A stretch of 64,000 nt of DNA from Methylophilales bacterium LSUCC0135 (GTDB lineage Bacteria; Pseudomonadota; Gammaproteobacteria; Burkholderiales; Methylophilaceae): assembly GCA_001704575.1 (NCBI GenBank), contig MCAW01000002.1, positions 1-64,000 of the forward strand, written 5' to 3'. Shown here piece by piece: positions 11,337 through 15,259 of this stretch; within the stretch, counting starts at the first letter, position 1, and every line of letters starts with the position of its first letter. A program made the translations under genes and the position numbers. The notes beneath the pieces are model-generated. The model was not told the origin of the DNA. It worked only from the letters and a program-made list of their open reading frames with translations, and did no database searches.

Positions 11337-11924
11337 CTATAGGGAACCCTTGGTAGACGGCATTATTCCCGCCATGCGGGAATCCATTTGCACTGCCATG
11401 CGCAGTGCGCGGCCAAATGCCTTGAAAATGGTCTCTGCCTGATGATGGGCATTGTCACCGCGCAAATTATCAATGTGCAGCGTGACTTGCGCGTGATTGA
11501 CAAAGCCCTGGAAAAACTCATGAATCAGATCAACATCGAATTCACCGATACGCGCACGCGTAAACTCGACCCCGAACTCCAGACCCGGTCGTCCGGACAA
11601 ATCCAGCACCACCCGCGAAAGCGCCTCATCAAGCGGAACATAGGAGTGACCGTAACGGCAGATGCCCTTCTTGTCGCCTATCGCCCTGGCAAAAGCCTGT
11701 CCAAGGGTGATGCCGATATCTTCAACGGTGTGGTGCGCATCAATGTGCAAATCGCCTTCCGCTTCGATGCTGATATCCATCATGCCGTGCCGGGCGATCT
11801 GATCAAGCATGTGATCCAGAAATGGCAAGCCTGTAGAGAACTTGGATGCACCGGTACCGTCCAGATTGATCGATACGGCAATCCGGGTTTCGAGGGTGTT
11901 ACGACTGACTTCTGCAATACGCAT
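11337..11924 (-). CDS. hisB: Imidazoleglycerol-phosphate dehydratase
   Basis: HisB dehydrates IGP to imidazole acetol phosphate. The 195-residue protein is the dehydratase alone, without the phosphatase domain of the enterobacterial fusion. The two metal-binding motifs HHTVED and HHQAET mark the duplicated fold. It follows the hps terminator by 37 bp, so it may need its own promoter. A TAAAAT box ends 6 bases before the ATG, with only a poor -35 (TTTGTA). Confidence 0.95.
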
Positions 11925-11954: not shown

Positions 11955-12000
11955 CAAAGGAAAACCGCCACAAAACATGTCATTTGTTTTGCAGCGGTTT
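11955..12000 (-). terminator. Rho-independent terminator after hps
   Basis: Read leftward, AAACCGC plus about nine more positions pair across 11961-12000 (two G-T wobbles) with a short loop, followed by TTTTCCTTT. It starts 37 bases past the hps stop. It would end the hps message before hisB. Confidence 0.82.
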
Positions 12001-12036: not shown

Positions 12037-12717
12037 TTAGCTGAACAGCTTCTTCAACCAGCCGAACAAGCCACCGGTTGAACCGCCGTCGCGTGCCAGC
12101 GAAGTGATTTCTGCAGCAGCAGCTGCAGGGTCAGCAGCGCCGTAGATCGCAGCGCCAGCGACGATGATGTCAGCACCAGCATCCTTCACCTGCTTGACAG
12201 TAGCAGGCTTTACACCGCCAGCCACGGAAATCTTCAGGCCGGTGTTCAGGCTTGCAACCAGAGCCAGATCGGTGAACGGTGTCTGGCCGGCAGCTTGCTG
12301 ATCAAGGCCGGTGTGAACGCCGATGATATGCGCGCCCAGCTTGGCAGCTTCCTTGGTACGGGTCGCCTTGTCTTCAACGTTGATCAGGTCAACTTGTGCT
12401 TCCTTGCCGTACTTGTTGGCCACATCGACCACACCCTTGATGGTGCCGAGGTCAGCAGTGCCCAGAACGGTACAGATGTCGGCACCGGCCTTGTAGAAAG
12501 GCTCCGCTTCGTAATAACCGGCATCCATGGTCTTCAGGTCAACCAGGATCTTGTTGTTAGGGAACTTGGCACGCAGCGTCTCAAGCAGCTTGATACCGTT
12601 GTGCTTGATGCATGGGGTACCAATTTCGAGAATGTCTACATGCGGTGCAACTTTACTGGCCAGAGCAACGGTTGCGTCGAAATCCAGCGAATCTAATGCC
12701 ATTTGAGTTAGTGCCAC
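12037..12717 (-). CDS. hps: 3-hexulose-6-phosphate synthase with C-terminal extension
   Basis: HPS condenses formaldehyde with ribulose 5-phosphate, the entry step of the ribulose monophosphate cycle. The protein begins MALTQMALDSLDF and has Glu31 in EIGTP, the DxKxxD motif at Asp60/Lys62/Asp65 and the HTGLDQQ segment, typical of this branch of the OMP-decarboxylase superfamily. It is 226 residues, about 17 longer than the roughly 209-residue enzymes I recall. The extra C-terminus is a Gly/Ser linker followed by the amphipathic segment LFGWLKKLFS. The start is GTG behind a strong GGAGGAAA site. It lies between hisB and hisC, flanked by a 168-bp gap and a terminator, and no 6-phospho-3-hexuloisomerase gene is adjacent. 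Confidence 0.95.
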   Translation of the reverse strand: MALTQMALDSLDFDATVALASKVAPHVDILEIGTPCIKHNGIKLLETLRAKFPNNKILVDLKTMDAGYYEAEPFYKAGADICTVLGTADLGTIKGVVDVANKYGKEAQVDLINVEDKATRTKEAAKLGAHIIGVHTGLDQQAAGQTPFTDLALVASLNTGLKISVAGGVKPATVKQVKDAGADIIVAGAAIYGAADPAAAAAEITSLARDGGSTGGLFGWLKKLFS

Positions 12718-12885: not shown

Positions 12886-13950
12886 TCATATGTGCAGAAT
12901 GGCCTGCAAGCCTTCAAGCAATTGCCGGTTCTGCTGTTCGGTGCCCACCGTGATGCGTAAATAGGGGCTGATGCGCGACGGCTTTTTGAAATGGCGAACG
13001 ATGATATTACGTTCACGCAAGCTGGCAGTGAGTTCCGCCCCGTCGCGGCCGGAAAACCTTGCGAAAATGAAATTGGCGCCCGAAGGCAGCACTTCAAAAC
13101 CCAGATTGCGCATGGAAGCAATGAGCCGCTCACGTGAGTCGATGACATGACGGCAGGTCGCATCAAAATACTCGCGATCCTCCATTGCAGCAATGGCGCC
13201 GGCCATTGCGAGGCTGTCTATCGGATAGGAATTGAAACTGTCCTTTACCCGGGTCAGCGCTTCGATCAAATCCCGATGACCCAGTGCATAGCCGACGCGC
13301 AACCCGGCCAGCGAACGCGCCTTTGATAGCGTGTGGGTCACCAGCAAATTGGGGTAGCGGTTGATCAGACTTACCGCCGATTCCGTGCCGAAATCAACAT
13401 AGGCTTCGTCAACCACGACCACTGAATCCTTATTGGCCTGAAGCAGGCGCTCCACCTCGGTCAGCGCAAGCGGAATGCCGGTTGGTGCATTCGGATTGGG
13501 GAAAATGATGCCGCCATTCGGCTTGAAATAGTCGTCTATACGAATATCGAAATTGTCGCCGAGCGGCACGGTTTCGAAATCAATATCGTAGAGACCGCAA
13601 TAAACCGGATAGAAGCTGTAGGTGATATCCGGAAACAACAAGGGCAGATCATGTTTCAACAAGGCCTGAAAGACATGTGCCAGCACTTCATCGGAGCCGT
13701 TGCCGACAAAAACCTGATCAGCCTGCAAGCCGTAAGTTGTTGCTATCGCCGCCTTTAGGCGGTCTGAATTGGGGTCCGGATAAAGTCTGAGGCTGTCCGA
13801 AATCGCCCCATGCAAGGCCTCCAGCACCTTGGGGCTGGGGCCATAGGGATTCTCGTTGGTATTGAGCTTGACCAGATTGGCAAGCTTTGGCTGCTCACCC
13901 GGCACATAAGGCGTCAAGCCGTGAACCACTTTGCTCCAGAATTTGCTCAT
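12886..13950 (-). CDS. hisC: Histidinol-phosphate aminotransferase
   Basis: HisC is a PLP enzyme that transaminates imidazole acetol phosphate. The 354-residue protein shows [29 protein letters not shown] and the PLP-lysine motif [15 protein letters not shown] chose the ATG at 13950 ([12 protein letters not shown]), 10 bp after hisD. A longer reading from 14034 would only add residues inside hisD. It is the last his gene before the hps gap. Confidence 0.95.
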
Positions 13951-13960
13951 GACCGGCCGC

Positions 13961-15259
13961 TCAGGACTTGAGGCGATATTCTGCAGATCGGGCATGCGCC
14001 TGCAGACCTTCACCGTAAGCCAGCGTAGCAGCAATTCTGCCCAGCTTGCGGGAGCCTTCAGGTGACACCATGATCAGGCTCGAACGCTTCTGGAAATCAT
14101 AGACGCCAAGAGGTGACGAGAATCTGGCCGTGCGCGAAGTCGGCAACACATGGTTGGGACCGGCACAATAATCACCAAGTGCCTCGCAGGTGCTTCGGCC
14201 CATGAAGATAGCGCCGGCATGCTTGATTTTCTTGCTGTAAGCAACGGGGTCTTGCACCGACAACTCCAGGTGCTCGGCCGCAATGTAATTGGCAATCTGC
14301 GCAGCTTCATCGAGGTCTGTCACACGTATCAGCGCACCGCGGCCTTCGAGTGAAGTGCGAATGATCTCCTTGCGCGGCATTTCTTCAATCAATCGCGCAA
14401 TGCTCGCTTCAACCTTGTCGAGAAAAGCGGCATCGGGTGAAAGCAGTATGGATTGTGCCAGCTCGTCGTGCTCGGCCTGAGAGAACAGATCCATCGCAAT
14501 CCAGTCAGGGTCGGTCTTGCCGTCGCAGATCACCAGAATCTCGGAAGGCCCTGCCACCATGTCGATACCGACCACGCCGAACACGCGGCGTTTGGCAGCT
14601 GCAACATAGGCGTTACCGGGGCCGACGATCTTGTCCACCTGCGGCACTGTCTGCGTGCCATAAGCCAGCGCAGCCACAGCCTGCGCACCGCCGATACAGA
14701 ATACGCGGTCCACACCGCAGATTGCGGCAGCTGCCAGCACCAGCTGGTTCTTCTCGCCACCGGGCGTCGGCACCACCATGATCAACTCTTGCACGCCGGC
14801 AACCTTGGCCGGGATCGCATTCATCAGCACGGACGAGGGATAGGCAGCTTTGCCACCGGGAACATAAAGACCGACACGATCAAGCGATGTGACCTGCTGC
14901 CCGAGCAACGTGCCGTCATCCTCGGTGTAAGTCCATGACGACATCAGCTGTTTTTCATGGTAGCTGCGCACACGGTCCGCGGCCTCCTGCAATGCTTCGC
15001 GTTGATCTGCCGGCAGGCTTGCCAGCGCCTGATCCAGTTCCGACCTTGCCAATTCAAGCGCAGCCATACTCGATACGTCAAGCCGGTCAAAACGACGGGT
15101 ATATTCGAGCACCGCCTCATCGCCGCGTCGCTTGACGTCTCGGAGTATATCGGCGACCACGTTATCGACGCTATCGTCCTGCGCGGTGTCGAAAGCCAGC
15201 AAGGCTTGCAACGATTGTTCAAAATCCGGGGCTGTTGTTGAATAACGTCTGATCTTCAT
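13961..15259 (-). CDS. hisD: Histidinol dehydrogenase
   Basis: HisD is the NAD- and zinc-dependent enzyme for the last two oxidations of histidine synthesis. The 432-residue protein has the [12 protein letters not shown] stretch, the signature EHDELAQS with a metal-binding His, and the catalytic AEHLEL segment. It is flanked by hisG (32 bp upstream) and hisC (10 bp downstream). Confidence 0.96.

Follow-up and report, generated by a model that had tools for sequence, protein, structure and literature searches.

HPS of the his Locus Carries a C-Terminal Tail

The window that we analyzed, a 64,000-nucleotide stretch of Methylophilales bacterium LSUCC0135, carries between hisC (upstream) and hisB (downstream), all three on the same strand, an hps gene for 3-hexulose-6-phosphate synthase (HPS; 12037..12717, minus strand, 226 amino acids, GTG start), recognized by its open reading frame (ORF), TIGR03128, PF00215, and fold. 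The protein scores 253.7 bits against TIGR03128 (cut-off 200) and 145.4 bits against PF00215, and six residues, D9, E31, D60, K62, D65, and H135, are invariant across 33 aligned HPS; among these we place the Asp, Glu, Lys, and His of the active site. The nearest solved structure by sequence as well as by fold is 3ajx, which aligns to residues 5–205 and came first in a search with the predicted model (TM-score 0.85 by query and 0.92 by target, 47% identity), the whole barrel being alike. On score, fold, and active-site residues the window protein is thus a member of the HxlA family TIGR03128, with a predicted enzyme activity.

The catalytic barrel comprises residues 1–209 (12091..12717, minus strand), as delimited by the extent of TIGR03128, the paralogue comparison, and AlphaFold2. 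Beyond it stand 17 residues, a Gly/Ser linker followed by GLFGWLKKLFS, so that the protein ends in SLARDGGSTGGLFGWLKKLFS before the stop codon (also written DGGSTGGLFGWLKKLFS). An earlier note on this DNA had placed this excess over a roughly 209-residue HPS at 12037–12090, and both points stand: TIGR03128 (205 positions) covers residues 5–206 only, 3ajx has 207 residues, the paralogue has 209, and the interval consists of exactly 51 bases of tail and the stop codon. The model and the single-domain structures 3ajx and 3f4w (211 amino acids) end about where the tail starts. We divide the tail into a flexible, weakly constrained linker, DGGSTGG (residues 210–216; 12070..12090, minus strand), which is a low-pLDDT coil, and a putative amphipathic C-terminal helix, LFGWLKKLFS (residues 217–226; 12040..12069, minus strand), proposed below as a membrane tether from its low-confidence helix, conservation, codon use, and hydrophobic moment.

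In the AlphaFold2 model of the window HPS (one of 33 window and locus proteins modeled; mean predicted local distance difference test, pLDDT, 87.8), the barrel is confident to about residue 209 and is followed by coil and by a helix at 217–225, with residues 212–226 at pLDDT <50. The tail is placed loosely, with low confidence, and has no firm seat on the barrel in the model.

The flanking genes, hisC (12886..14034, minus strand, start listed as TTG) and hisB (11337..11924, minus strand), were assigned from their ORFs and from the gene order in relatives. A terminator-like stem-loop of 16 pairs lies immediately 3′ of hps (11962..12000, minus strand); as a count it is no excess over shuffled sequence (1 found, shuffle mean 2.1). 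A consensus search for an hps promoter found none.

Tailed and Tailless HPS Are Divided by Locus

Passages of PMC4109929 describe two HPS genes in Methylophilaceae, the first within the his cluster and the second next to HPI and tal, with about 90% identity within a genome. LSUCC0135 has both: its sole further strong HPS match (C1:213117, L005) lies between transaldolase (tal) and PHI and encodes 209 amino acids ending in EITALAH, with no tail, and the body of the window HPS is identical to this tailless paralogue at 190 of 205 residues.

To follow the tail across relatives we used two sets, which overlap in species, so that their counts are not summed. The collection scan used six search peptides, the tail among them; of its 165 loci, ranked by similarity to the tailed query, the best 80 were retained, which favors tailed copies. 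Tailless and transmembrane copies came via the other peptides. Its 85 HPS genes at 80 loci comprise 26 beside his genes with the amphipathic tail, 14 beside his genes with a transmembrane end, 44 beside tal/PHI with neither, and one amphipathic-tailed gene without readable neighbors. For the whole-genome set, 40 regions were chosen by long matches or long open frames from among the matches listed, a choice by which the frequency of tailless his copies cannot be measured. Its 111 genomes, five of them outside the family, show the amphipathic tail beside his genes in 50, a transmembrane end beside his genes in 34, and a tailless copy beside tal/PHI in 26 (three outside the family); two have a PHI fusion, and six (G036, G038, G049, G051, G052, and G178) have the amphipathic tail with no readable his or tal/PHI neighbor.

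Among the distinct rows with known locus (n = 143), his-adjacent HPS is tailed in 83 of 83 (47 amphipathic, 36 transmembrane) and tal/PHI-adjacent HPS tailless in 60 of 60, a count that includes three rows from outside the family and excludes two HPS-PHI fusions found there. Those fusions aside, neither a his-adjacent copy without an extension nor a tal/PHI copy with one was found among the genes read. All 75 rows in which at most eight residues follow the body come from the tal/PHI locus, and six of six independent pairs on well-supported branches fit the locus rule (sign test, p 0.03). Some rows lack part of their 5′ end (L129/L183, L136/L177, L175, and L176) or are cut by contig ends (L253 and L268). 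The amphipathic tail occurs in 19 genera, with his neighbors read in 15 of them (g5, g11, g13, and g22 rest solely on the six neighborless genomes), and the transmembrane end in five; both kinds are found in g8 and g19. The earlier note had asked how widely HPS of the Methylophilaceae keep the tail, and whether all close copies have it or it is unconserved: the tail was seen on the his-type copy only, tailless close copies exist, and where present it is conserved, as the next section details.

On a contig of a metagenome-assembled genome (L045, among the 26) a tailed hps is preceded upstream by a tal match and followed downstream by hisB, either a recombination of the loci or an assembly artefact. 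In eight cases (L061, L070, L079, L080, L155, L156, L158, and L159) two HPS genes from two clades, both tailless, stand in tandem at the tal/PHI locus.

Constraint on the Tail Core

A core pattern, G-x-[FL]-G-[WF]-x-K-x-L-[FL], fits 94 of the 96 short-tail rows. One misfit, L253, is a transmembrane end truncated where its contig stops; the other, L181 (genome G052), reads FCCWLKKLFS, with two Cys falling within the core of this tail variant, GGGFCCWLKKLFS. The pattern was defined after the first tails had been seen and requires G1, G4, K7, and L9, so the invariance of these four in the 50 DNA versions is partly by construction, L181 being the sole departure. At the other positions F3 is kept in 49 of the 50 versions and W5 in 47, and position 8 is K in 39 and otherwise G, S, R, or N; Asp and Glu are absent from the core in all 51 distinct DNA versions. 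The codons vary freely beneath the kept residues, the core Lys codons, for instance, being 24 AAG and 26 AAA.

The ratio of nonsynonymous to synonymous variation (pN/pS) is 0.15 for the tail core, against 0.77 for the six codons of linker that precede it and 0.29 for body residues 157–205. L181 was included through a looser pattern, and its omission hardly changes the values (0.14, 0.78, and 0.28). The core ratio is rough because synonymous sites are near saturation (pS 0.79). Since the letters of the tail are conserved, selection on the tail is shown.

The hydrophobic moment of the 11-mer GLFGWLKKLFS is 0.67, equalled by 2.2% of 5000 shuffles; for natural variants of the 11-mer, 2.1–4.3% of shuffles reach the respective moment. 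In its sequence the tail has the make-up of a C-terminal amphipathic membrane targeting sequence, namely a short helix (predicted with low confidence) with a hydrophobic face, basic residues, and a linker. The Gly/Ser linker and short helix with one hydrophobic face and two Lys that the earlier note had described are there in the sequence, the helix at the pLDDT given above.

A Transmembrane Form and the Exchange of Bodies

In 34 genomes of five genera, Methylophilus and parts of other genera, the his-locus HPS ends in a hydrophobic helix (G139 is cut by a contig end, and G125, also cut, is not counted). The 42 distinct transmembrane ends of both sets have a best 19-residue Kyte–Doolittle mean of 1.67–2.58, and most terminate in a stretch rich in A, P, and E; no Pfam domain was found in this end in the four proteins tried. 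For the Methylophilus methylotrophus form (L064) AlphaFold2 predicts a helix at 222–238 and then an unstructured end, both with low confidence. Both kinds of tail begin Gly-rich. A motif near TDGLVGAAK is common to several of the transmembrane-type ends (L040, L240, L243, and L269).

A tandem hps pair between hisC and hisB in one metagenome assembly (L021/L110; L021:1881-3666) has one copy with the amphipathic and one with the transmembrane end. The two bodies are identical over 609 of 609 bases, and differences begin where the tails begin, which makes the pair a natural experiment in anchor exchange.

A tree of HPS bodies interleaves both loci (149 rows, after removal of duplicates, of incomplete rows, and of rows whose start lies beyond query residue 5; the bootstrap is not quite settled). 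On this tree the label "no tail" changes 14 times, "amphipathic" 17 times, and "transmembrane" six times, each far under shuffled labels, and the locus label, his versus tal/PHI, changes 10 times among the 143 rows with known locus. The 10 locus changes and the interleaving of the loci indicate that bodies moved and tails stayed. In Methylovorus sp. MM2 the bodies of the two loci share 576 of 609 bases, and each is more distant from its counterpart in Methylovorus mays (472/603 and 504/609 bases) than from the other. A divergent HPS clade (about 61–69% identity), tailless at the tal/PHI locus, also has tailed copies, which adjoin his genes in G033, G034, and G035.

HPS in Streamlined Genera and beyond the Family

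In the streamlined genomes (1.2–1.4 Mb, genera g2 and g16) the sole strong HPS match is of the tal/PHI type and tailless (15 of 15 read). All 20 of those searched have hisB, and 17 have hisC and hisB close together with no hps between them. Three streamlined loci (L282, L283, and L286) have the hisC–hisB gap filled by an unrelated ORF of about 175 amino acids.

Among 399 genomes from the order, which include 13 of the family, every strong HPS match (E <1e-90) falls within the family, the best other match being partial (E 1.1e-6). Six of 369 genomes from the class have a match over the HPS cut-off, LSUCC0135 being one of them. The other five, read at one locus each (further copies, e.g., three in G819, are outside this reading), comprise three tailless HPS and two HPS-PHI fusions (L206 and L207). 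The fusions, of methanotroph-like genomes, also carry a C-terminal addition, but it is an isomerase domain and no anchor.

A Putative Membrane Tether and Its Alternatives

HPS is usually regarded as a soluble enzyme. As far as sequence comparison can tell, one of the two HPS isozymes of these bacteria bears a real, conserved, and locus-bound membrane-tether signature. We consider it likely that the tail of the his-locus copy is a C-terminal membrane tether, which would make this copy a membrane-bound isozyme beside the soluble one encoded at tal/PHI; membrane binding by the tail, taken by itself, we likewise regard as likely. Tethering is the best reading because the tail interchanges with a real membrane anchor. 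Of the two roles that the earlier note had offered, membrane targeting or cargo docking, the former is supported by the transmembrane replacement at the same locus, and classical cargo docking falls away, as there is neither an encapsulin nor a bacterial microcompartment shell gene for it to partner in LSUCC0135: PF04454 (for an encapsulin cargo-loading peptide) and PF00936 (for a microcompartment encapsulation peptide) both have 0 matches in the genome, with controls positive in 3/14 and 2/14.

The disordered Gly/Ser linker would present an amphipathic helix of 9–10 residues, with L, F, W, L, L, and F on one side, two Lys, and no acidic residue, and this helix may insert shallowly into the inner membrane from its cytoplasmic side. 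A single short tail may bind weakly, and the two tails of an HPS dimer, which we take to be the form of the enzyme, may bind strongly together, as in dimeric MinD. The same job would be performed in Methylophilus, and in parts of other genera, by a true transmembrane helix.

The C-terminal membrane targeting sequence of MinD is likewise a short amphipathic C-terminal helix, and according to passages of PMC8155659 a single copy of it is too weak, dimerization giving sufficient membrane affinity. The moments are close, 0.61 for the Escherichia coli MinD 9-mer and 0.64 for FGWLKKLFS. There is no sign of shared descent, and the HPS tail differs in its Trp and its Gly-rich linker; ATP-switched dimerization is not known for HPS. 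The likeness is one of mode only: a MinD identity for the window protein was rejected, as it is an HPS by PF00215 and TIGR03128. The LSUCC0135 genome (given as 99.8% complete) has no MinD match over the family cut-off (controls over cut-off, 5/14).

Several observations weigh against a tether. The moment of the 9-mer FGWLKKLFS is reached by 11.8% of shuffles (10.6% for the MinD 9-mer), and the amphipathicity statistic by itself is modest and would not carry the case; the short helix is predicted at pLDDT <50. Recombination between like bodies leaves tails in place mechanically, so body exchange alone is no proof of selection. In many rows Lys stands on both sides of the transmembrane segment, and charge therefore does not settle the topology of that form. 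Streamlined relatives have the soluble HPS only, which makes the anchored form dispensable for the pathway. A co-anchored partner was not found, the PHI of L005 lacking such a tail, and both copies were read with their neighbors in only three genomes of the whole-genome set.

The tail might instead dock to protein and not to lipid, the partner being either a protein of the inner membrane or a further enzyme of formaldehyde metabolism. Short hydrophobic C-terminal peptides on flexible linkers do also dock, and the Trp (47 of the 50 DNA versions) and the two Gly, though the latter are demanded by the pattern and fail only in L181, are kept beyond amphipathic need. A transmembrane replacement at the same place fits one protein socket poorly, unless the partner resides in the membrane, and besides the lack of encapsulin and microcompartment genes, the FGW-x-K-x-L DNA pattern has no second match in the LSUCC0135 genome; we consider docking unlikely. 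The same search disposes of the tail as a genome-wide address tag, the pattern matching hps only in this genome (looser variants were not searched, and many matches elsewhere were not read).

Packing of the tail inside the HPS oligomer, for stability or allostery and without reaching the membrane, is very improbable: a hydrophobic peptide could fill an interface of what is presumably a dimer or larger, but AlphaFold2 leaves the tail loose, with low confidence, the same tail also occurs on a divergent body, the two loci have closely similar bodies that interleave in the tree yet only one locus is tailed, and a transmembrane segment is unlikely to pack in that way. Much the same low probability attaches to a signal for degradation or regulation by which the level of one isozyme is set. 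Hydrophobic peptides at a C terminus can act as protease tags, and the two HPS copies differ chiefly in the tail; the interchange with a transmembrane helix and a long end does not suit such a signal, which also seems a poor reason for keeping a second gene in so many genera.

Formaldehyde Fixation in the Methylophilaceae

The class of pyrroloquinoline quinone (PQQ) methanol dehydrogenases makes formaldehyde in the periplasm. Two matches in the LSUCC0135 genome exceed the cut-off of the model for PQQ methanol/ethanol dehydrogenases; one of them, L297, scores 535.8 bits against TIGR03075 (cut-off 480.05) and has, by eye, a secretion-signal-like N-terminal stretch. An HPS held at the membrane would meet periplasmic formaldehyde at its entry, and the purpose of the tether may perhaps be to trap it there with ribulose 5-phosphate (Ru5P). 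The HPS of Methylococcus capsulatus was reportedly once described as particulate.

A fusion of methanol dehydrogenase with HPS-PHI improved conversion (passages of PMC8879981), a result that fits the tether idea and is not a test of it. The two loci are already in print in PMC4109929; the words "C-terminal," "anchor," and "transmembrane" are absent from its main text, and the parts consulted mention no HPS tail. The open-licence literature searched, passages of PMC3728764 and PMC8527097 included, yielded no mention of an HPS tail or anchor, and within that literature the tail is apparently unreported.

For the family, we tentatively suggest that many non-streamlined Methylophilaceae fix formaldehyde at two sites, with one HPS soluble in the cytosol and the other tethered at the inner membrane, the tether being selected at one locus while bodies were swapped and the type of anchor changed. 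Passages of PMC4109929 and other sources give no reason why these model methylotrophs have two near-identical HPS genes. If true, a tether would also offer a short natural localization tag for synthetic methylotrophy, and the question of why there are two HPS becomes directly testable through a small deletion. A conserved tether on one copy would, if true, explain the two genes, one of them serving to capture formaldehyde at the membrane and so to limit the escape of this toxic intermediate.
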